In this document: positions 6,513 to 25,185 of the stretch, in pieces
Numbering within the stretch: the first letter of the stretch is position 1
Layout: every line of letters begins with the position of its first letter
Source of the DNA: a virus
Virus record (IMG/VR): IMGVR_UViG_3300032605_000132
Span: 1-25,185 of that record
Strand: one strand, 5' to 3'
DNA: 25,185 nt
Made by a program: the position numbers and the translations under genes
The notes under the pieces: model-generated
The model's database searches: none
Told to the model about the DNA's origin: nothing
What the model saw: the letters and a program-made list of their open reading frames with translations, nothing else

Positions 6513-9500
6513 ATGGCACTCACGATCGAACAAGCCATGGCCGAGGCCCAGGCACAGAACAACAGCTCCGCCGCTGGCGCTCCCCCCGCCCCTGGGGGTA
6601 GTAGCGATCCAGCCGCTGGGGCCGGTGGAGGGGGTATGCCCGCAGCGCCATCCCCGCAGGATGCCTCCTCCACTGCTGCCCCTGCCGAGGGGGCCCTGGG
6701 TTCTGCCGTGAGTGGTGCCACCGACATGGCCTCTTTCGGGCTCATGGACGAACTCTCTGCCGGGCTGGAAACTCTGGGGGTCCCTGGTGGGGCCGGTAAA
6801 GCCGTGGGCTGGACTGATCCCAACGGGTGGGGCGGAGCCTATGCAGCTAACCTCGCTGCGGAACGTGCCCAGATGGAAGCCGACAAGGCCCAGCACCCGT
6901 ATGCCTTCTTTGGGGGTGGCGCTGCGGGCGCTCTCCTGATGCCGGTCAAGGCGGGGATGCAGGGGGGCATCGGTTCGTTTGTCCGCGCAGGGGCCCTCCA
7001 GGGTGGCCTCTATGGGGCGGGCAGCGGGACCACCCTGGAGAACCGCGCCGAGGGAGGTGCTACAGGGGCAGTCATTGGTGGGGCCACCGCAGGGGTCCTC
7101 GGCAGGCTCACCCAGCTCATCAGCCCCCGCCTGGCCAACCTCTTCGGGCGCACTGGTGGGGAAGTCGCTCAGGAAGCCGATGCCGGTGCTCAAGAGCTGA
7201 CAACCTCCAAGCCCACCATCCTGGGGTCCACCACGGACGGCCAGCCCATCCTCGCCATGCACGCTGCCGAAGCGGTGGAGACAGGTGCGGGTGAAACCGA
7301 ACAGATCGTCCTGCCTGGGTTCGAGGAAGCTGACCTCGCCAACGCGGGAGAGAACGGGCGGGCTGACCTTGGCGCGACTGCCTCCACGGGGACTGCCACC
7401 CGCCAAGCCCTGGATGCTTTCCAGACGGACATGGAGAACGCCCTGGCCAAGGGTCGCCCTGCTGCGGACATCACCTGGGAGAGCGATCCTGCCCTGGCTG
7501 CGAAGCTGGGGGAGTGGCGCCTAGGGAATATGTCTGACAGCGACGTTGCGGTGGCCACTGCCAAGGCCCTGACGAATGTGATGGCTGGGCGGCCTCCCCT
7601 GACGGACCCCGAGCTGTATTCCAAGGCGGGCACCATTCTGACCTACCTGGGCGACGATGCCGAGCAGGCTATGGCTGTGGGCAAAGAGCTGGCGGCCAAC
7701 CCCGAGCACGCCCCTGTGGGAGCCATGGTGTTCAAGACGCTGTGGAGCCGGGCTGCGGATGAAATCCATGAGATGTACCTGTCTGGGGTCGATTGGGCCA
7801 CCGCTTCGGATGACCTTCTCAAGGAAGCCGGGCAGCGCATCTACAACCTGATGAGCCTCCAGCAGTTCAACAACCAGGTCAAGACAGGGTGGGGACGCCT
7901 GGGGCGTGTCCTCCAGCTCCCCAACGTGGATGACTACTTCGCCAGGATCGAAGCCGGTGGGGAAGCCGAAGCGGGCGGCGTGGGGATCGAGGAAGCCAAC
8001 CCCGGCCAGCCTGCCCCTTTGCCGAGTTCCCGCGATGGCTTCGATGCCTTCTTCCAGAAATGGGCAATGACCGGAGGTGATCCCAAGGCAATCGCCGCTT
8101 TGCTGGACGATAAGCTCGCAGGATACATTCCCTCGCCGTGGGATTACGCCAAGAAGTCCGTGTCGAATTTCTTTATGGGCAATATCCTCTCGGCACCGAA
8201 GACATTTGCCAAAGAGCTGGCTTTCCCGAACATTACCTTGGGATTGCACACTGTGGCGCGGTCATTAGGGGCGGCTGCGGCCTCCCTCGATCCTACCGTC
8301 TCGGCTGAGCAGCGGCAGGCCATGTGGATGGTCGCCCAGAACGCCTCCAAGGCCTACTTCACCAACTTCGGGCAAATCCAGGTGTACGCCAAGCAGGCGC
8401 TCCTGGCAGCCCAGGTCGATCGGTCGCTGATCGGGGGTACCTCTGAGGATGCCTCTGCGTATGCCCGCCAGTTTACCTCACTGGGCCCCATCACGCCCCG
8501 GATGATGCAGACGCTTGGGGTCGATCCGGCACAGGCTGGCTCGATGGGGTACACTCTGGGCAATGCCCTAAACTTCCTCCCCCGCACCGTCACCATGCCT
8601 CTCCACAGTGGGATGGCCGAGTTCACACAGAACCTCCTCTATGGCAACGAGGTGCGCCTTAACGCCATGGTCCAGGCCGCCCAGCAGGGTCTCGAAGGGG
8701 ATGCCGCTGACGCCTATGTGACGAATGCGGTAGGCAAGGCGTGGTCCGACACGGGGAAGGCTCAGAACTCGGCCCTCCTCGACCAGGCTCAGCGCCTCAA
8801 TATGTTCCGCACCCCAGGGGAACCTGGTTCGGGCCTCCGCAAGGTGTCCGATCTTATCAACGAGCTGCGGGGCTCCAGCCCTGTCATCCGCTTCCTGCTA
8901 CCCATCTACAACGTCTCAGCCAACTCCCTGGCCGAGGTGCTCCGCGCCATCCCGTTCGCCTCGAAGGTCCCCGGTGTGGGCGCCCTCTGGCACAACACTG
9001 CACAGGAGCTGTCAGGGGAGCTGGGGCCGGTTCGCCAGGCTGACGCCTACGGGCGCACGCTGCTGGGTGGCATGTTCCTGATGGCCGGGGAGGCGTTGAA
9101 CCGCACGGGGTCCCTGACGGGGGCAGCCCCCACCAATCCCAAGGATCGGGAAGCCTGGGAAGGCCGGGGCAGTGACGGCTCGGTGCGTATCCCCTATGCC
9201 CTCAAGGTGGGTGACAATTGGGTGGCCCTGAATGAGATACCTATGCTCGGCGGCCTGATGAGCATCCCTGCCACCATCCGCGATGTCACCCAGTACCACC
9301 CCGATGACAATGTACACCAGAATGCCGTCCTAGCGGGCGCTGGGGCCCTTGCGCAGTGGTTCCTGGACCGGAGTGCCATGAAGACTGCCGCTGAGGTCCT
9401 GAGCCTCGGGAGCGATCCTACGGCGGGTATTGGCAAGGTGGTCAATCAGGTTACCTCCGGGGTAGCCTCGGGCATGATCCCCTTCTCCGGCGCCATCCGG

Positions 9501-10253
9501 TCCCTTGACAATGCAGTCGATCCGTATGTCCGCATGAAGGACTCCTGGGGTGACTACATCCAGCAGATCATGCCGGGGCTGTCCGAGCGGCTGCCGGAAG
9601 AGCGTAACGTCCTGGGCGAACCCGTGCTCAAGGCCAATGCGGGGGCCCTCAATCAGATCAGCCCGGTGACTGTCGCCAGTGGGATCGATCGGGGTCACGA
9701 TCCGGTGTTGTCCGAGCTGGGCCGCCTGTGGCAGCAAACCGGCTATGGTGCTGACGCTGACCCGAACGCCACGATTGGGCACGGCTACTTCGATCCCGGT
9801 CAGGTGAACCTGGAGGATGGCTCCTCGCTGCGGGACCGCTTCTCGATGGAACGCCAGACGATGCAGATTGGGGGAAAGACGCTGCGGGAAAGCCTGGAGC
9901 ACCTCTTCGACAATCCGATCTACCAGAACGGCGTTGACGGGAACAGCACTCAGCGGACCACCTCTGCGGGACAGATCAGCCGGGCCTACCTGGTGTCGCA
10001 AACCTTCCGTCAGTACAATGACGCGATCAAAGCCCAGACGGCCCTCGGGAGTGACACCGCTCGGGATTGGATGGTCGCTGGAGCGGCGAAGCATAGGGAT
10101 GACGCATATCTGCGTGGAGTGAGCGCGGAGGACCTAGTGAAGAACCCCGACCTGTACCAGGCTCATGGTGTCGTGAAGGGTGTGTACGATGGGGCTCTCC
10201 TCCAGGGCGCTGCCTCCTCGCTGGCACGGGACTTCGAGAAGACGCCTGGGTGA
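6513..10253 (+). CDS. Large internal virion / DNA-ejection protein (T7 gp16-like)
   Basis: At 1246 aa this is close to T7 gp16 (1318 aa) and in the same place, last of the core-protein run. Residues 8-55 are low-complexity Ala/Pro/Gly/Ser. Residues about 130-200 are Gly/Ala-rich and apolar (FFGGGAAGALLMP, GAVIGGATAGVLG), compatible with membrane insertion. The remainder is a long, mostly helical region with moderately hydrophobic stretches such as SPVIRFLLPIYNVSANSL. I see no transglycosylase catalytic signature, consistent with the wall hydrolase having moved to the preceding gene. AGGA lies about 9 nt before the ATG. The call rests on length, order and composition rather than on a recognised motif. 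Confidence 0.8.
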   Translation: MALTIEQAMAEAQAQNNSSAAGAPPAPGGSSDPAAGAGGGGMPAAPSPQDASSTAAPAEGALGSAVSGATDMASFGLMDELSAGLETLGVPGGAGKAVGWTDPNGWGGAYAANLAAERAQMEADKAQHPYAFFGGGAAGALLMPVKAGMQGGIGSFVRAGALQGGLYGAGSGTTLENRAEGGATGAVIGGATAGVLGRLTQLISPRLANLFGRTGGEVAQEADAGAQELTTSKPTILGSTTDGQPILAMHAAEAVETGAGETEQIVLPGFEEADLANAGENGRADLGATASTGTATRQALDAFQTDMENALAKGRPAADITWESDPALAAKLGEWRLGNMSDSDVAVATAKALTNVMAGRPPLTDPELYSKAGTILTYLGDDAEQAMAVGKELAANPEHAPVGAMVFKTLWSRAADEIHEMYLSGVDWATASDDLLKEAGQRIYNLMSLQQFNNQVKTGWGRLGRVLQLPNVDDYFARIEAGGEAEAGGVGIEEANPGQPAPLPSSRDGFDAFFQKWAMTGGDPKAIAALLDDKLAGYIPSPWDYAKKSVSNFFMGNILSAPKTFAKELAFPNITLGLHTVARSLGAAAASLDPTVSAEQRQAMWMVAQNASKAYFTNFGQIQVYAKQALLAAQVDRSLIGGTSEDASAYARQFTSLGPITPRMMQTLGVDPAQAGSMGYTLGNALNFLPRTVTMPLHSGMAEFTQNLLYGNEVRLNAMVQAAQQGLEGDAADAYVTNAVGKAWSDTGKAQNSALLDQAQRLNMFRTPGEPGSGLRKVSDLINELRGSSPVIRFLLPIYNVSANSLAEVLRAIPFASKVPGVGALWHNTAQELSGELGPVRQADAYGRTLLGGMFLMAGEALNRTGSLTGAAPTNPKDREAWEGRGSDGSVRIPYALKVGDNWVALNEIPMLGGLMSIPATIRDVTQYHPDDNVHQNAVLAGAGALAQWFLDRSAMKTAAEVLSLGSDPTAGIGKVVNQVTSGVASGMIPFSGAIRSLDNAVDPYVRMKDSWGDYIQQIMPGLSERLPEERNVLGEPVLKANAGALNQISPVTVASGIDRGHDPVLSELGRLWQQTGYGADADPNATIGHGYFDPGQVNLEDGSSLRDRFSMERQTMQIGGKTLRESLEHLFDNPIYQNGVDGNSTQRTTSAGQISRAYLVSQTFRQYNDAIKAQTALGSDTARDWMVAGAAKHRDDAYLRGVSAEDLVKNPDLYQAHGVVKGVYDGALLQGAASSLARDFEKTPG

Positions 10254-10273
10254 TTGTTATAGGACATAACATA

Positions 10274-10298
10274 TGCCACTGGTATCTAGTATAACACT
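10274..10298 (+). promoter_or_regulatory. Candidate phage RNA polymerase promoter, copy 1
   Basis: A 25-bp element, TGCCACTGGTA-T-CTAGTATAACACT, recurs 148 bp downstream with a single difference. Length, same-strand orientation and position before the holin/terminase genes fit a T7-type promoter (T7 has its phi17 promoter at this spot). After AACACT comes a G-rich run (CTCAGGGG), comparable to the CACTATAGGG initiation region of T7 promoters. The orientation is inferred from the downstream genes. No copy was found by eye elsewhere in the window. Confidence 0.5.
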
Positions 10299-10421
10299 CT
10301 CAGGGGTACATCCCTCTATAGGCTCCCCAGAGGGGACCCCTCGTAGAGACCCCCTGACGTATTGGAGGGTATGGGTGCTGCTGGTGGGTAGTGGGGTTCC
10401 TATTGGGATAGCCCTAGTCCG

Positions 10422-10446
10422 TGCCACTGGTAGCTAGTATAACACT
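10422..10446 (+). promoter_or_regulatory. Candidate phage RNA polymerase promoter, copy 2
   Basis: Second copy of the 25-bp element, with G in place of T at position 12 (TGCCACTGGTA-G-CTAG). It continues AACACTAAGGGGG, which is closer than copy 1 to the T7-type CACTATAGGG start region. It lies about 75 bp before the holin-like gene, which has its own AAGGAG site. Confidence 0.5.
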
Positions 10447-10522
10447 AAGGGGGTCACACCTGATAGGTATACCCCTGCCGGGCAGAGAGCGGCAGTAGAC
10501 ATCCCTCTAAGGAGACACTGAT

Positions 10523-18641: not shown

Positions 18642-18682
18642 TCCCCTAGCAACGGGACCCCCTCACTAGGCCATTGACAAGG

Positions 18683-18716
18683 GCCCCCTAGCAGGATACT
18701 GCCGGGGGGCTTTTCT
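18683..18716 (+). terminator. Rho-independent terminator ending the early gene block
   Basis: GCCCCCTAGCAG pairs with CTGCCGGGGGGC around a GATA loop (one A-C mismatch, one G-T pair). It is immediately followed by TTTTCTT. This should stop host-polymerase transcription of the early genes before the tail genes. A TTGACA word at 18674-18679, 15 bp before GATACT, overlaps the hairpin and could be a weak promoter or chance. Confidence 0.8.
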
Positions 18717-18746
18717 TGTGTATGCGTCTCATAGGAGCCAGTCCCC

Positions 18747-19355
18747 ATGCCATTGCCCTCCCTGTCCACCACGGTCTCCCTCTCTGCGGGATGGACCGAT
18801 CTGACAACCCTCGCAGGCCTGACCCAACTGCCGAACCAGCCCACCAAGGTCAAATGCGTGGACAAAGGGGCGACCATCGGCGTGGTGGGCTCGCTCAGCG
18901 CCTCCGCTCCGGGTGCCTATGCTGCGTATCAGGCCAGCGGGTACAACCAAGAGCAGATCGTCAACGGCTATGCCCACCTGTGGGTCTACGCCTCAGCGAC
19001 CACTAACGTGCTGGTTTCCACGGCAGAGCAAGTCGAAGCGGTGCCCAAGGAGTTCGCCCCTGTAGTGCCTGCGGAAGAGGCTCTGCTTGTGTGGCCCGAC
19101 CCAACTGTCCCGTTCGATGCGCGCAAGTGGGGGTCGGTCTCCATCTGGTGCTTCGTGGCTCCGGCATCTGCGCGGGTCATCAATTGGGGTGACGGTGCGG
19201 CGAACATGATCCCGGCAACCCCAGTGGACAATGCCGCTGCGGGTATCACCACGCCTGTATCCATCTCGGCGGTCGGACGGTTTACTCTGGCAGGTGGCTG
19301 CTGGATTAGCCTCGCTGCGGGCACTGGCACGTTTATGATCGGACGGGGGAACTAA
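18747..19355 (+). CDS. Beta-rich probable tail or structural protein next to the tailspike
   Basis: A 202-aa protein rich in Thr, Val, Ala and Gly, with alternating strand-like segments (NGYAHLWVYASATTNVLVST, GSVSIWCFVAPASARVINWG, SAVGRFTLAGGCWISL) and few charges. This is typical of phage tail, fibre or decoration domains, but it matches no family I can name and lacks the T7 gp17 N-terminal anchor. It is followed after 3 nt by the tailspike-like gene, suggesting joint function, perhaps as adaptor between tail and spike. Base composition resembles the late virion genes rather than the downstream tailspike. AGGAG lies 9 nt before the ATG. Confidence 0.6.
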   Translation: MPLPSLSTTVSLSAGWTDLTTLAGLTQLPNQPTKVKCVDKGATIGVVGSLSASAPGAYAAYQASGYNQEQIVNGYAHLWVYASATTNVLVSTAEQVEAVPKEFAPVVPAEEALLVWPDPTVPFDARKWGSVSIWCFVAPASARVINWGDGAANMIPATPVDNAAAGITTPVSISAVGRFTLAGGCWISLAAGTGTFMIGRGN

Positions 19356-19358
19356 GCC

Positions 19359-21638
19359 ATGGGCAAGATGACAAAAGGGGCTCTCCTGGCAGGGCTCGCA
19401 ATGGGTATTCTCTGTGGGGGGGGCACCGCTTGGGCGAGCACCGATGCGGTCGCTCAGGGGCTTGCGGCCTCCCGCCCACCCAACCCTATCCAAATTTATG
19501 CAAATGCCAATGGCTGCATTTGGGATGGCGCGAGCGGGCATGACGTCGGGCCTTGCATCAACGCGGCAATCGCGCAGGCGGCTGCGCTGGGCGGCGCGGA
19601 AGTCATTGTTCCCTCCATCCCAGGGGGGGTGGCCTACGCAGCAACCAATATCCTGAATACATCGTCTGGCGTGCGTATCCGAGCCGCTGGGTGGGGGCCG
19701 CCGCGCAATGCTTCGGTCAACTCGATCCAGCCAGCGCTCAAGATCATCTATAATGGGAGCGCAGAAGCCGGGCCATTTGTGCAAGTTGTTCCTCTTAGCA
19801 CTTTACCCATTTCCGATGCGGGAATTGTCGGCATTGGCTTTGACTGCAATTCCTTGGTGGACACTTGCGTCAACATTCGTGACGTAACCTATTCTACCTT
19901 TCAATTCGATCAAGGCGGCGCTCGCAAAACCGGGGTCTTGTTCGATACCGGCGTTACTAATCCGGGGACACAGTTTAACGATGTTTGGGTCGCGGCGAAT
20001 AATACCAACCCATCCTATTGCGCGTCCGGCATTGTGCTGGACAAGGGTGTCAGTTCGACCGGTAACACCTCTTACAACCATTTTCACTTGCTCTATGCGG
20101 CCTATGGCTGCGGAGACGGCATTGTGCGCGGTGCGAATGACTCGAACGTCTATGACGTGGTGAGCGCCTATCACTACGGTACTGCAACCAGCGGATCGCC
20201 CGGCATCGATACCAACACCGCTTATACGCCTCCCTCCGGCGTTCCGACCCACAACTACAGCAACGACAACCTCACGCTATTCACAGGTATCCCGTTCTGG
20301 CATCAAGGGTTTACGCAGGGCGCGGTGTGGGCGGCGAATGGTGGCAACGTCGGGACAATGGCCTATGCTCCGGTTACGCTGACAACCAACGCAGCGTCCA
20401 ACACCAGCACATCAACTCTCTCGTTCGCAGCGGTGTCAGGCGTCGTAACAGGCCAAGGGGTGACTTGTGGCGGTGTCACGAGCGGCATCTACCCCAACAC
20501 CTATGTTACGACTGTTTCGGGGACCACGATAGGCTTGCAGCGCTACCCGGTGGCAGGAGGGGGCTTCTCGGGTGTTGCGTCTGGCCAATCATGCACCTTT
20601 GGGCTTTATGTCAATTCGTCGGCAGCACCAGGCCCATACACTATCACCGCGCTATCTGGTTCGACAGTGAGCGTGACCGCATCTGCTGGGGGCACCAGTC
20701 AGGCCAGCGTCCCGATCAGCGGCGGCGCGATCAAGGCAGCGGATTTTACCATTCCTGTGACCGGAACGCCAACGGCGGGGGATTACTGGACACTGACCGT
20801 GGCCACGCCTTCACAGATGAGTCAGACGATCCATACCGACAAGGCGAATAATGTTAGTGATGGTGGTTACGAACAGGGCGCTACCGGTCTTGATACCTTT
20901 GCGGGCCAAAAAGCGTTTTATGGTGACAGCACGCATTGCATGGCATTTTACAGCATGACAGGTGCAGCGTTGTCGGGCCAGGCCTGCAACGGAAATGGCG
21001 GTCTGTTCGGTGGTCAATCAGGCGGGGTTGCTGGCACCAATCCGGTAGGTTGGGGTGGATCAAACAACTATATCCTGTATCCTGCCGTCAATGCCTGTTA
21101 TCTCGGCGGCATCGGCAATACTGTCAGCGGCAATTATAGCTGTATCGTTGGCGGCAATGGCGCAAATGATCGGGGCCGCCGCGCCGTGACTTGTTTTGCT
21201 GCTGGCAGTTTCGCAACACAGGGCGATGCACAAATTTGCACCACTGTTTTGCGGGGGACTGGCGCAAGTGCCACCGCCTTTCGACTTACCAATGATGGCG
21301 CAACGGCAGGAACCGCCAACTGCGTCAACATCCCGAACAACACGTCTTATGCGGTCACCTACTCGGTCCATGTAGTGGACCACACGGGTATCACCACCAA
21401 GGGTGTGACGTGGACCAACGGCACCGGAACGCTTTATCGCGGTGCGAATGCGGCCTCGACGACATGGCTTCCGATCACTTCGCCCGCGTTCGGGTCGTTC
21501 GGCACCGTGACCGGCAGTAGTCTTGCCCTCAGTGCTGACACGACGAACGGCTGTCTATCACTTGTGTTCACGCCACCGACCGGGAATTCGGACACGTTGA
21601 ACGCGGTTGCGCGGGTTGAAACTGTCGAAGTCCAGTAA
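19359..21638 (+). CDS. Tailspike-like right-handed beta-helix protein with signal-peptide-like N-terminus
   Basis: A 759-aa protein. Residues about 6-27 look like a Sec signal (KGALLAGLAMGILCGG then TAWA|S). Residues about 60-110 (VGPCINAAIAQAAALGGAEV then IVP, with a later VRIRAAGWG) follow the pectate-lyase-3/tailspike start pattern (D----I--AI--A---GG-V--P-G-Y). Long beta-helix-like repeats follow. The last 140 residues (GDAQICTTVLRG, NDGATAGTANCVNIPNN, LSADTTNGCLSL, ARVETVEV) resemble a C-terminal domain common at the ends of phage tail proteins in alphaproteobacterial phages. It likely binds or degrades surface polysaccharide. Oddities are the signal peptide and a lower-GC, ATT/TTT-rich codon style unlike the phage's other genes, suggesting recent acquisition. 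No lyase catalytic residues can be assigned. Confidence 0.72.
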   Translation: MGKMTKGALLAGLAMGILCGGGTAWASTDAVAQGLAASRPPNPIQIYANANGCIWDGASGHDVGPCINAAIAQAAALGGAEVIVPSIPGGVAYAATNILNTSSGVRIRAAGWGPPRNASVNSIQPALKIIYNGSAEAGPFVQVVPLSTLPISDAGIVGIGFDCNSLVDTCVNIRDVTYSTFQFDQGGARKTGVLFDTGVTNPGTQFNDVWVAANNTNPSYCASGIVLDKGVSSTGNTSYNHFHLLYAAYGCGDGIVRGANDSNVYDVVSAYHYGTATSGSPGIDTNTAYTPPSGVPTHNYSNDNLTLFTGIPFWHQGFTQGAVWAANGGNVGTMAYAPVTLTTNAASNTSTSTLSFAAVSGVVTGQGVTCGGVTSGIYPNTYVTTVSGTTIGLQRYPVAGGGFSGVASGQSCTFGLYVNSSAAPGPYTITALSGSTVSVTASAGGTSQASVPISGGAIKAADFTIPVTGTPTAGDYWTLTVATPSQMSQTIHTDKANNVSDGGYEQGATGLDTFAGQKAFYGDSTHCMAFYSMTGAALSGQACNGNGGLFGGQSGGVAGTNPVGWGGSNNYILYPAVNACYLGGIGNTVSGNYSCIVGGNGANDRGRRAVTCFAAGSFATQGDAQICTTVLRGTGASATAFRLTNDGATAGTANCVNIPNNTSYAVTYSVHVVDHTGITTKGVTWTNGTGTLYRGANAASTTWLPITSPAFGSFGTVTGSSLALSADTTNGCLSLVFTPPTGNSDTLNAVARVETVEVQ

Positions 21639-21656: not shown

Positions 21657-22457
21657 GTGACTACCACCCTCGCCCAAGCCCACAAGTTCGCCGCCGACTA
21701 CTGGGACCGCAACGATCGTAACCTCAAAGCCAGGACCCCTGGAATGATGGCCATGCGGGCTCTCCGTTGCGTGTCCCTGCTAGGTGGCCCTGGCAAGCTC
21801 GCCTCCACGCTGTCTCCCAAGGACGGGGCTTCCCTCCTGGTGGCACTCAAGGCCGGGGGTCTCACGCGATCCTCGGTGGTGAGCTACTACTCGGCGTTCC
21901 GCAGGATGCTCGCCCTGAATGGCATCCAGACGGTGGACTGGCCCAAAGCCCCCTCGGCCCCTAGGCAGGTCCGCGATCCTGTGTCAGAGGAACACGTCCA
22001 GGCGCTCCGCGATTGGCTGGCTGCCAGGGGCTGGGATGACACCGCTGCCCTGATCGACCTGATGGGCTCTACCGGGCTCCGCGTGGAGGTGGAAGCCTTG
22101 AACGGGGACTGGCAGGCACGGGGGGACGGCAGGCTGGTGGTTCACTCCGGCAAGGGTGGCCATGCCAGGGTGGTGCCCTACCGAGGTCCTGAGAAGGGCC
22201 CCCTACGCGAGACCCTCAGCGATTTGACCTATGCGGGGCACCTGTGGCGGTGGCGTAAGGGGCTCAAGGAGCTGGGCCTCCCGAGTGACCTCCGCCCACA
22301 TGACCTGCGCCGGAAGTTCGTCAGGGACGTCTATGAGAGGTCGGGCAAGGATATTCGCCTGGCACAAGTCCTGGCCGGGCACTCCGATCCGGGGACCACA
22401 GCGGGTTATATTGGGGCCGATTGGGCTCAGATGGAGGCGGCTTGTGGCACATCCTAA
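21657..22457 (+). CDS. int: Tyrosine recombinase / phage integrase
   Basis: This 266-aa enzyme is on the short side for an integrase but complete. An N-terminal SAM-like DNA-binding part (about 1-100, with LTRSSVVSYYSAFRRML) precedes the catalytic domain. Catalytic residues seen are R142 (GSTGLR), K166 (HSGKGGHAR), H215 and R218 (RPHDLRR), H242 (LAGHSD) and Y251 (TTAGYI). Box I reads TGLRVEVEAL, with the usual Glu displaced by one position. The start is GTG, with AAGGAG about 11 nt upstream and only 18 bp after the tailspike stop. It makes the phage temperate. No att core is recognisable nearby. Confidence 0.93.
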   Translation: MTTTLAQAHKFAADYWDRNDRNLKARTPGMMAMRALRCVSLLGGPGKLASTLSPKDGASLLVALKAGGLTRSSVVSYYSAFRRMLALNGIQTVDWPKAPSAPRQVRDPVSEEHVQALRDWLAARGWDDTAALIDLMGSTGLRVEVEALNGDWQARGDGRLVVHSGKGGHARVVPYRGPEKGPLRETLSDLTYAGHLWRWRKGLKELGLPSDLRPHDLRRKFVRDVYERSGKDIRLAQVLAGHSDPGTTAGYIGADWAQMEAACGTS

Positions 22458-22791
22458 TCCGAACCACATCGAGAGGTGCCGCCGCTGCGGCTTTCCTGAC
22501 TCCATGGGCTATGAACAGGCCTATCGCCACCAGGAAGAGGAACGGGACAAGTTCGAGACCCTCAGGAGGAGAGCCCACCAGATGATCGCCAAAGGCATGA
22601 GTCCCCGGGAGGTAACCAAAGAGGTGCTGTTCTGCCTGGGGGTTGACCTCCGGGAGGTGGCCTCCGAGGCAGTGCACATGAGGCTGCCCTACATGATGGC
22701 CCCCTCATACCAGGACCAAGACCCCGTGGAGATTACTCGCCGGGAGCTGCATCCTGAGTGGAACTTCACTAGGGGCAGTTCCGGCAATTAG
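22444..22791 (+). CDS. Small CxxC protein overlapping the integrase end
   Basis: A 115-aa product starting at GTG 22444, with GGAGG about 5 nt upstream, inside the last 14 nt of the integrase gene. It begins MAHPNPNHIERCRRCGFPDS, with one CxxC pair, and then a charged helix (QEEERDKFETLRRRAH). The segment AKGMSPREVTKEVLFCLGVD resembles a helix-turn-helix in spacing. Its position could fit a recombination directionality factor or regulator, but excisionases are usually smaller and no family is recognised. A longer upstream frame exists but would lie within the integrase gene. Confidence 0.5.
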   Translation: MAHPNPNHIERCRRCGFPDSMGYEQAYRHQEEERDKFETLRRRAHQMIAKGMSPREVTKEVLFCLGVDLREVASEAVHMRLPYMMAPSYQDQDPVEITRRELHPEWNFTRGSSGN

Positions 22792-22796
22792 TAAGC

Positions 22797-22825
22797 TTGA
22801 CAACACCAAAAGGGGTCGCTAATCC
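22797..22825 (+). promoter_or_regulatory. Host-type promoter upstream of the secreted protein gene
   Basis: TTGACAA (22797-22803), 14 bp, then GCTAATCC (22818-22825) fits the alphaproteobacterial housekeeping pattern TTGACGS-N10-14-GCTANAWC well (perfect TTGAC, 6 of 8 in the -10 box). In E. coli terms it is TTGACA with a 15-bp spacer and GCTAAT. Transcription would start near 22830, leaving a leader of about 34 nt with AAGGAAAAGGG before the ATG at 22864. Confidence 0.55.
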
Positions 22826-22863
22826 TGGCCTCCCCTAACTTGCAAGGAAAAGGGAATACCTCA

Positions 22864-23373
22864 ATGAACCAACTTTTCAAACATACCCTGGGCGCAGCCC
22901 TGGCCATGATCGCCTCGCTGGCAATGCCCTTCGCGGCTCTTGCCCAAACCGTCCTGGTGACGCCCACCCCGAACGCGGTCAATTACACCTCGACCGGGAT
23001 CACCAACGGCGCTGCCAACTACACCAACTCGACCACCACCGCCTCCAACATCGTCTCGCTGACGGTGCCTGCCACTCGTGGTCCGGGCACAGCCGGGGAA
23101 ATCGTGGAAGCGTGCTTCGTGGGCGATGCGGTGAAGGCCACGGCCACCTCGGGCACCGTCACGTTCGTGGTCAACGGTACACCGGGCGCGGCCTACCAGA
23201 TCGCTTCCACCGCTGGCCGCTCGGAGCTGAGCCCCTGCTACTGGGTGGCGCGCCCCACCAACGGCTCATTCACTGTGGCCGTCACGGGCGTCAGCGCGGA
23301 CACCAACACCTTCACGGTCTACGGTTCGCAGCTCAAGGTCCAGACCTGGTTCGTCCTCCAGGGCAACAAGTAA
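22864..23373 (+). CDS. Secreted protein with Sec signal peptide; moron-like gene
   Basis: A 169-aa protein starting at ATG 22864 (a TTG at 22840 is rejected as it lies upstream of the ribosome site). The N-terminus, MNQLFKHTLGAALAMIASLA followed by MPFAALAQ|T, is a textbook signal peptide with an A-x-A cleavage site. The mature part is about 140 residues, Thr/Ala/Val/Asn-rich, beta-strand-like, with two Cys (EACFVG and LSPCYW) that could form a disulfide in the periplasm. No family is recognised. It has its own host-type promoter and a strong terminator, between integrase and RNA polymerase, which suggests expression in the lysogen, for example as superinfection exclusion or surface change. 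A virion role is the alternative. Confidence 0.75.
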   Translation: MNQLFKHTLGAALAMIASLAMPFAALAQTVLVTPTPNAVNYTSTGITNGAANYTNSTTTASNIVSLTVPATRGPGTAGEIVEACFVGDAVKATATSGTVTFVVNGTPGAAYQIASTAGRSELSPCYWVARPTNGSFTVAVTGVSADTNTFTVYGSQLKVQTWFVLQGNK

Positions 23374-23398
23374 GCCGTCTCCCCCTGTCGGAGATGGC
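23374..23398 (+). other. RNA hairpin directly after the secreted protein gene
   Basis: GCCGTCTCC pairs with GGAGATGGC around CCCTGTC (9-bp stem with one G-T pair), overlapping the last base of the stop codon. It has no T-run of its own and precedes the U-tract terminator at 23405, forming a tandem 3' structure that could protect the mRNA end. Confidence 0.6.
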
Positions 23399-23404
23399 CT
23401 AAGG

Positions 23405-23441
23405 AAGGGGTGGGTTGCGCGCATGGGCCCGCCCCTTTTTT
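23405..23441 (+). terminator. Rho-independent terminator between the moron-like gene and RNA polymerase
   Basis: AAGGGGTGGG (23405-23414) pairs with CCCGCCCCTT (23428-23437) with a single T-G pair, followed by a run of six T (23436-23441). It insulates the RNA polymerase gene from the upstream transcript, so the polymerase gene needs read-through, antitermination or another promoter. None is obvious in the 28 bp before its start. Confidence 0.87.
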
Positions 23442-23469: not shown

Positions 23470-25185
23470 ATGACACCGATCGAGGCCCAAGAGGAGCGCG
23501 AAGGCGCCCTCCGCAAAGCCGCAGTGGGACGCCGGGCCGATGCTATCCTCAAGGGTCGCTACGGGCCAGTTCTCCGCCGCTGGATTAACGCTGAGGTGGT
23601 CCCTGTGGCCGCCCGGCTCCGGGAAGTCGCAGAGGCGTACACCTTGGGCGATATGGCCTACGCGGCGCAGCTCATCGGCAACCCCACAGCGGAACTCACC
23701 GCAGGCGAACGCCCCCTCCTACCCCTCATGATCTGGTGCCAGCGGGGTCAATCCCTGGGGCGCGGTGATACAGGGGCAGCCACATCCTACGCCGAGGACC
23801 TGTGCCTGGCCTTCATGGCCACCGTCCTCACCAAGCTCTGCCAGTCGAAGGGCGAGGGTGTCCCCCTCACGGCTCTCCTGTCAGCAGCCTCCACCGCGCT
23901 TCGCGACACCGTGCAGGGCCAGTTCGTGGTGTCCGTGCAGGGCGCCGACGCAATGCAGGCCATCCGCGAGAGGCAATCACACTACTGGACCCAGCGCAAG
24001 AGCCTCGCCAGGATCGCCAAGCAGATGCGCGCCCAGGTCAAGCCCCAGCTCCTGGCCGAGGCGAGAGGCGAGACGGTTATTGCCACTAGGGGCCATCGCA
24101 AGGTCATCCAGGTCACCGACAAGGAAGGGGAGCTGCGCCGCCTGGAGCTGCTGCGGACCCCCGATGAGGTTGACTGGGCAGTGATGGACCTGTGCTGGCA
24201 CCCTGAGGAGGACGCTGGGGATAGTCGTCACAGGGGCGTGTGGCTGGCCTTCTCGGGGGTGCTCCTTTACCTGGTGCAGGGGGTGAGTGGGTGGTTCGAC
24301 ATCGGGCACGCATTCAAGTCCTCTACCGGACGGCGGCGCAAGACACGTACCCCTGTGGTGCAACTCAGCGAGGCTTCCCACGCAGCCCTCACTCGCGATG
24401 TGGAACGGTGGGTCGAAAACGCCTTTGACGCCCAGCCCATGCTGGTCCCTCCGCCTGATGGGGATTACCTCACCGTGAAGCACCACAAGGTTACCGGGCA
24501 GCGGCCTCCGAAAGGGATGGTCACCCGAGCAGAGGGCACCTTCGCGTGGACCGAGGGGGCTGTGGCCCTGGCACATTCTCCTTGGCGGGTAAACCCCTGG
24601 GCCCTGGAGAACCCAGCACTGGACACCTCCGATCCCTTCACCGCTATGAAGCTGGCCGCCCACCGCCGCCTCGGGCCTACCCAGGACTTCTACCTCCCAG
24701 TCAACATGGACTTCCGGGGGCGCATCTACTATCGGACCCCCTGGGTGACCCCGCAGTCGAATGATCTGGGGAAAAGTTTGCTTAGTTTTCCGCAGAAAAT
24801 ATCCGAGGGTTCCGACACCTCTTTGTTTGGCGCGACAGGCGATGCACTGGTGATGCATTTTGGCAATTTGTACGGCAACGGGATGGACAAGCAGCCCCTG
24901 GCGGTGAGAGAGCACTGGTTGCAGGACTGGGGCCTGGACGCGGACTGTTCCAAGGCGGAGGAACCCCTGACACTGGCCGCCCACTGGGCGCTCCACAAGC
25001 GGGGCCTCTCCGATTGCATCCCTGTGCAGCTCGATGGTTCCTGCAATGGCCTCCAGCATCTGAGCGCCTTGATGCGTGACGAGGTGGGGGCCGCCCAGGT
25101 GAACCTCGTGGGCACAGGGGACTATCCCGCCGACATCTACCTCCAGGTGGCAGACGCTTCCGGGCAGGAGTATTCCTCCGAGGCT
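23470..25185 (+). CDS. T7-like single-subunit DNA-dependent RNA polymerase (5' part, runs off window)
   Basis: The frame is open from ATG 23470 to the window end: 572 codons, against a T7 polymerase of 883 aa. Signature blocks are VNMDFRGRIYYRTPWVTPQS (411-430), equivalent to T7 YNMDWRGRVYAV--FNPQ, and VQLDGSCNGLQHLSALMRDE (520-539) followed by VGAAQVNL, equivalent to the T7 motif A block. D522 there corresponds to the metal-binding catalytic Asp537 of T7. The N-terminal domain is divergent, as usual. The promoter-specificity loop, second catalytic Asp and C-terminus lie beyond the window. The enzyme would transcribe the late genes, presumably from elements like those at 10274 and 10422. A weak AGGATACCC ribosome site precedes the ATG. 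Confidence 0.95.
   Translation, partial: MTPIEAQEEREGALRKAAVGRRADAILKGRYGPVLRRWINAEVVPVAARLREVAEAYTLGDMAYAAQLIGNPTAELTAGERPLLPLMIWCQRGQSLGRGDTGAATSYAEDLCLAFMATVLTKLCQSKGEGVPLTALLSAASTALRDTVQGQFVVSVQGADAMQAIRERQSHYWTQRKSLARIAKQMRAQVKPQLLAEARGETVIATRGHRKVIQVTDKEGELRRLELLRTPDEVDWAVMDLCWHPEEDAGDSRHRGVWLAFSGVLLYLVQGVSGWFDIGHAFKSSTGRRRKTRTPVVQLSEASHAALTRDVERWVENAFDAQPMLVPPPDGDYLTVKHHKVTGQRPPKGMVTRAEGTFAWTEGAVALAHSPWRVNPWALENPALDTSDPFTAMKLAAHRRLGPTQDFYLPVNMDFRGRIYYRTPWVTPQSNDLGKSLLSFPQKISEGSDTSLFGATGDALVMHFGNLYGNGMDKQPLAVREHWLQDWGLDADCSKAEEPLTLAAHWALHKRGLSDCIPVQLDGSCNGLQHLSALMRDEVGAAQVNLVGTGDYPADIYLQVADASGQEYSSEA

Follow-up and report, generated by a model that had tools for sequence, protein, structure and literature searches.

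A predicted exported protein encoded between the integrase and RNA polymerase genes of T7-like phages, with a possible role in superinfection exclusion or surface change

In this study, we analyzed a linear virus record of 25,185 bases from a T7-like phage (the whole of this stretch is called the window) and found that the gene preceding the RNA polymerase gene, here named X, encodes a predicted exported protein which is kept at the same place in two divergent relatives. The reading that we tentatively prefer places X at the end of the integrase (lysogeny) unit of a temperate T7-like phage lineage, with a product that is exported and acts at the envelope or surface, likely in superinfection exclusion or surface change. 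The gene, its signal peptide, the terminator that follows it, its synteny and its conservation were read directly from the sequence.

Gene X and its relatives

The tail tubular, internal virion and terminase genes of the window phage were closest to those of Autographiviridae, for example Mesorhizobium phage Lo5R7ANS. The phage has a single-subunit RNA polymerase, T7-type tail and packaging genes, and an integrase upstream of the polymerase, as in the integrase-carrying lineage of that T7-like family. On the + strand, the gene for a tyrosine integrase of 266 aa (21657–22457; PHROG integrase E 2e-16, Pfam PF00589 E 1e-10) is overlapped at its end by an ORF of about 115 aa (22444–22791), which has a CxxC motif and no family in Pfam or PHROGs. 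X follows at 22864–23373, and the single-subunit (T7-type) RNA polymerase gene begins at 23470 and is cut by the contig end at 25185 (PHROG RNA polymerase E 5e-39, Pfam PF00940 E 2e-18). The first-pass annotation had placed X between integrase and RNA polymerase, which is right as to position, but a further ORF, at about 22444–22791, lies between the integrase and X. This small ORF was considered as a conserved partner of X and was not supported as such, being non-homologous to the ORF found in the same place in one of the relatives described below (L092). Rfam and tRNA scans returned nothing, so that the surroundings of the integrase gave no tRNA-derived attachment site.

The reading frame of X runs on the + strand from an ATG at 22864 to a stop at 23373 and encodes 169 aa. 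By our own rule-based test, with which signal peptides were called throughout, its N-terminus, MNQLFKHTLGAALAMIASLAMPFAALA followed by QTVL, is a type I Sec signal peptide of 27 aa (22864–22944) with a predicted cut between ALA and Q. Signal peptides were called by the same rule in all three X homologues (3/3), with canonical AxA-type cleavage sites, and X has no lipobox. Two cysteines align between the window protein and the L092 copy, which fits an exported protein. X is present as a single copy in its phages, and it had no credible match in Pfam, PHROGs, NCBIfam or PADLOC, and none, in particular, to the exclusion or defence families in these libraries; the Protein Data Bank gave no credible match by sequence either. 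A profile match to bacterial microcompartment shell proteins (E 0.03) was dropped, as it consisted of four marginal matches only and the proteins were absent from the fold-search list. The earlier description of X as a signal-peptide protein belonging to no known family was thus borne out on both counts.

In searches of close relatives, X was absent from sequenced phages and plasmids, and X alone as a query also found nothing in IMG/VR. Two related contigs, L010 and then L092, were reached through alignment of the T7-type RNA polymerase; a third contig returned as an integrase relative, L136, proved to be an unrelated phage and was set aside. L092 (IMG/VR contig IMGVR_UViG_3300048915_000059, 42.3 kb) has an RNA polymerase 49% and a terminase 54% identical to those of the window, and the corresponding values for L010 (IMG/VR contig, 43.3 kb) are 35% and 43%. 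In each of the two, a homologue of X that begins with a signal peptide is encoded between integrase and polymerase, so that the homologue search among related phages which the first-pass annotation had proposed gave two divergent carriers of X at the same place. Over 131 aa, the L092 protein is 43% identical to X (E 2e-28). The L010 protein aligns with that of L092 at E 7e-17, and its identity to X is 37% over 76 aa. X is therefore kept in all three members of its lineage, whose terminases are only 43–54% identical, and the small ORF that precedes it in the window is not kept.

L092 has a second, larger integrase downstream of its RNA polymerase (38532–39746), besides the small integrase of the lineage that stands next to X, and the conserved integrase may therefore not be the lysogeny integrase in that phage. 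The X family was absent from 50 other T7-like virus contigs, had no match in a profile search of GTDB genomes, and was not found in 36 host genomes with T7-like prophages, where the best hit (E 0.011) was not credible. No lysogen or host of the X-bearing phages was found in the sets searched, among them the 50 T7-like contigs and the GTDB genomes. The family accordingly consists of three known homologues, all from uncultured phages. Judged by these searches, X represents a small and new protein family whose genomic context is coherent.

The neighbourhood of X in the relatives bears on its timing and on one further role. In L010, the stretch between X and polymerase (6777–8884) encodes a C1q-like protein with a membrane/signal segment, a holin-like gene and Rz-like genes, which is an unusual place for them; these late-looking holin and Rz-like genes mean that the timing of X could be late. 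Rz-like ORFs also stand just after the polymerase gene in L092. X might on these grounds be a lysis accessory acting in the periplasm, but it has no muralytic, transmembrane or spanin features and in the window the adjoining lysis genes have not been kept beside X, and we consider this role very improbable.

Sequences flanking gene X

Ahead of X, the sequence TTGACAA-N14-GCTAATCC (22797–22825, + strand) had been described as a good alphaproteobacterial promoter match. It scores 10/14 against the alphaproteobacterial consensus TTGACGS-N10-14-GCTANAWC; the + strand of the window holds 88 matches that good (87 besides this site) and shuffled sequences hold 71–105, so that the consensus match before X is at chance level. 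What stands of the claim is a modest match of 10/12 when the site is read as TTGACA-N15-GCTAAT, a score that just two + strand sites of the window reach, against 0.75 expected. The site before X lies 39 nt upstream of the X start codon in an intergenic leader, and both sites are in intergenic leaders, intergenic DNA making up 6.5% of the window. The other site, at 18674, overlaps the hairpin of an intrinsic terminator (18674–18719, + strand; fold z = -4.9) upstream of the run formed by a 202-aa ORF, a 759-aa ORF, the integrase gene and X. It is plausible, with modest support, that the sequence before X is a promoter, and if so possibly a weak one. When the whole window was searched for a repeated phage-polymerase promoter, none was found upstream of X. 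A 25-bp element, TGCCACTGGTAKCTAGTATAACACT, occurs in two copies (10274 and 10422) within the noncoding DNA at 10254–10522 between the gp16 homologue and the packaging genes, and the two copies are candidate phage-polymerase promoters.

Behind X, one hairpin directly follows the stop codon (23374–23398, + strand; fold z = -5.4), and a second hairpin followed by TTTTTT (23400–23441, + strand; z = -2.9 alone and -4.5 with the first hairpin) makes an intrinsic terminator between X and the RNA polymerase gene. The two hairpins together have a fold energy of -41.8 kcal/mol versus -26.7 for shuffles, and none of 200 shuffles was as good (z = -4.5), in agreement with the tandem hairpin/U-tract terminator reported earlier. 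The generic terminator scanner missed this terminator (23374–23441) because its loop is longer than 8 nt. L092 likewise has a strong intrinsic terminator between X and the polymerase gene (z = -5.9). The window terminator occupies the position of terminator T4 in Pseudomonas phage LUZ100, which was mapped between integrase and polymerase by transcript sequencing (PMC10134795). T4 stops most lysogeny-gene transcripts, and leakiness has been proposed, by which read-through supplies the polymerase (PMC10134795).

Terminators are found at this place in phages without X as well. Among temperate T7-like phages, RHEph21, CRP-171 and Lo5R7ANS resemble the window in having an integrase upstream of RNA polymerase, and RHEph21 and CRP-171 also have intrinsic terminators in the same integrase-polymerase interval; unlike the window, none of the three carries X, and Lo5R7ANS has other cargo there. 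The LUZ100 cassette (MarR-integrase-T4-RNA polymerase) likewise shares with the window an integrase, an intrinsic terminator and a T7-type polymerase gene on one strand. It differs in having no X, T4 being separated from the polymerase by no more than a phage promoter and a short hypothetical ORF, whereas no MarR gene was recognized next to the window integrase. Since terminators stand at the same place in phages free of X, the terminator does not belong to X. Strong + strand terminators were present in 16 of 45 short integrase-polymerase intervals versus 17 of 208 random windows, and as the reverse strand of the same 45 intervals gave 11, part of the + strand excess comes from hairpin-rich intervals.

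These results bear on the proposal of the first-pass annotation that X is a self-contained moron with a host-type promoter and a terminator of its own. On this view X came in together with these signals as one piece and would be expressed constitutively in the lysogen. The TTGACA-N15-GCTAAT site, the strong terminator after X, and the absence of X from the same interval in RHEph21, CRP-171 and LUZ100, so that it is present or absent at one site among related phages, are all what a moron would show. Against this, the terminator is not the gene's own, the fit to the alphaproteobacterial consensus is no better than chance, and X is retained across its lineage. In L010, moreover, X starts 4 nt after the integrase stop, which leaves no room for a separate promoter and makes X most simply part of the integrase unit. 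The codon usage of X is core-like and not foreign: its codon score in the window (0.302) lies inside the 95% range of the phage core genes (0.145–0.325), and X is within the core-gene range in all three phages. The moron proposal did not hold up well against these observations, and we regard it as unlikely. It is reasonable to expect that X, which encodes a predicted exported protein of no known family and has a lysogeny-gene position, is expressed together with the integrase as the closing gene of its unit, either in the lysogenic state or early.

The genes upstream of the integrase have a different composition. The 202-aa ORF (18747–19355, + strand), which has no family, shows somewhat atypical codon usage (codon score 0.111, below the core range of 0.145–0.325 in the window) and lies directly upstream of the 759-aa ORF (19359–21638, + strand), whose product went unmentioned in the earlier annotation. 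The 759-aa product is a second predicted exported protein, with a strong signal peptide by the rule-based test (cut between AWA and S), the look of a pectate-lyase-type spike and no database match; its codon usage is also atypical (codon score -0.059, below the same core range). Its gene apparently shares one gene run with the integrase and X. It looks like the best moron candidate in the window and more moron-like than X. The tail-fibre gene is missing from the window phage at 10253–11347, its usual place after the gp16 homologue, and is present there in L010 and L092; the signal-peptide-bearing 759-aa spike may replace it.

Predicted fold and possible roles of X

The fold of X was modelled. 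An AlphaFold2 model from the 3-sequence alignment (mean pLDDT 67.9, pTM 0.63) shows nine strands, with the first 41 residues disordered, and its residues 41–163 (22984–23352, + strand) form an all-beta, C1q/TNF-like jelly-roll domain. The L092 copy, modelled from its single sequence without an alignment, gave pLDDT 35 and was uninformative. Foldseek matched the X model to C1q-domain phage proteins and phage fibre proteins, and among solved structures to the lambda fibre tip, the TNF-like lectins BC2L-C and PLTL, BclA and Pgp3, with TM of about 0.5–0.6 and identity of about 11%. The C1q/TNF-like jelly roll is defined by ten strands, while the X model shows nine at a TM of about 0.5–0.6 to its members. 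With moderate confidence, we take X to be predicted as a C1q/TNF-like jelly roll, the likeness being at the level of fold and no evidence of function. The C1q/TNF-like domains of phage fibre tips, BC2L-C, PLTL, BclA and Pgp3 are, like the X model, a single all-beta jelly roll of about 120–140 residues; X differs from those proteins in having an export signal instead of a virion-anchoring or collagen-like stalk, besides the low identity of about 11%. The idea that X had been copied from the fibre tip of its own phage was not supported, as X is unrelated by sequence to the fibres of these phages.

A fold like that of X is common in virion proteins, and jelly rolls are typical of phage fibres and decorations. 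X could thus belong to the virion, for example as a small decoration or fibre-tip protein, and its hydrophobic N-terminus would then serve in assembly or as a membrane element and would not be a true export signal. The C1q-like protein among the next genes in L010, which weakly matches a tail-protein family, and the lack of a fibre gene at the usual place in the window are in line with this. T7-like virions, on the other hand, assemble in the cytoplasm, and the canonical signal peptides with AxA-type cleavage sites in all three homologues speak against a virion component. So do the position of X beside the integrase and not among the structural genes, and the normal fibre gene that L092 and L010 possess in addition to X. 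A place in the virion is, in our judgement, unlikely, though less so than any other alternative considered here.

The solved structures point in another direction as well, since the best matches include the TNF-like lectins BC2L-C and PLTL. X might be a secreted lectin or adhesin that serves lysogen fitness through attachment, aggregation or matrix binding, unrelated to phage exclusion, which would be a case of lysogenic conversion. The second exported protein encoded just upstream in the window, with its glycan-active-spike look, would suit such a trait, but a similarity of TM about 0.5–0.6 and about 11% identity is generic, and we rate this role as improbable, behind both the virion component and the moron. 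More speculative still is the idea that X is a soluble exported fibre-knob decoy, a new family without a virion anchor, which prophages of temperate T7-like phages would make from the integrase unit and which would occupy the host receptor or glycan and so block superinfection; we regard this as doubtful.

The interval as a cargo site and a model for X

In the T7-like loci compared, the integrase-polymerase interval is often empty and otherwise holds varied cargo. In Lo5R7ANS this is a BglII-type endonuclease, a methyltransferase and RtcB, and the cargo of other loci matched endolysin, anti-repressor, ASCH-domain and methyltransferase proteins. The signal-peptide rule was passed by 8 of 63 interval ORFs versus 17 of 1094 ORFs in the remainder of these loci (Fisher p = 3e-5), with the 8 coming from two lineages only (the X lineage, and L044 with L051) and the test treating related phages as independent, so that an enrichment of the interval in exported proteins is suggestive only. 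The low figure outside the interval makes the earlier remark that T7-like phages rarely carry exported proteins roughly right. In L044 (6375–6890) and L051 (6412–6909), which belong to an unrelated T7-like lineage, a different predicted exported protein is encoded in the same interval; it is Ser/Gly-rich and has a C-terminal membrane helix.

Two phage proteins from known systems guided our preferred reading of X, which has a predicted export signal (3/3 homologues by our rule) and a gene beside the integrase in the lysogeny module. Ltp of Streptococcus phage TP-J34 is a small protein which is exported and brings about superinfection exclusion; its gene adjoins that of the integrase within the lysogeny module and is transcribed in the prophage (PMC3952083). 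Unlike X, Ltp is a lipoprotein of a Gram-positive system, whereas X is a jelly roll without a lipobox and has no recognizable sequence relation to it. Glo of Vibrio phage K139 is a soluble periplasmic protein that is exported and excludes superinfecting phage (PMC3952083). X is likened to Glo by predicted export only, and the profile libraries gave no sequence relation between the two. Superinfection exclusion or surface change is favoured because Ltp is analogous in gene place and Glo in soluble export, and by this analogy such a role for X is plausible.

Considering the above results, we propose a model in which the transcription unit, the timing, the binding partner and the effect of X are inferred. 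Host RNA polymerase would start at an upstream promoter and transcribe the integrase gene, the small ORF and X, with a possible further start at a putative weak promoter just before X. Most of this transcription would end at the tandem-hairpin terminator after X, so that the phage RNA polymerase gene would stay off in the lysogen and be reached only by read-through, as proposed for LUZ100. Exported X would most likely bind an envelope or surface glycan or receptor, and bound X may hinder adsorption or DNA entry of further phages, or otherwise alter the surface of the lysogen.

The comparison with phages free of X separates two things that had been merged in the earlier account, namely a terminator that would gate the polymerase, which is found with or without X, and a cargo gene standing before it. 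A predicted exported protein that is conserved beside the integrase in three divergent phages is a candidate agent of lysogenic conversion, or of superinfection exclusion, among these T7-like phages.
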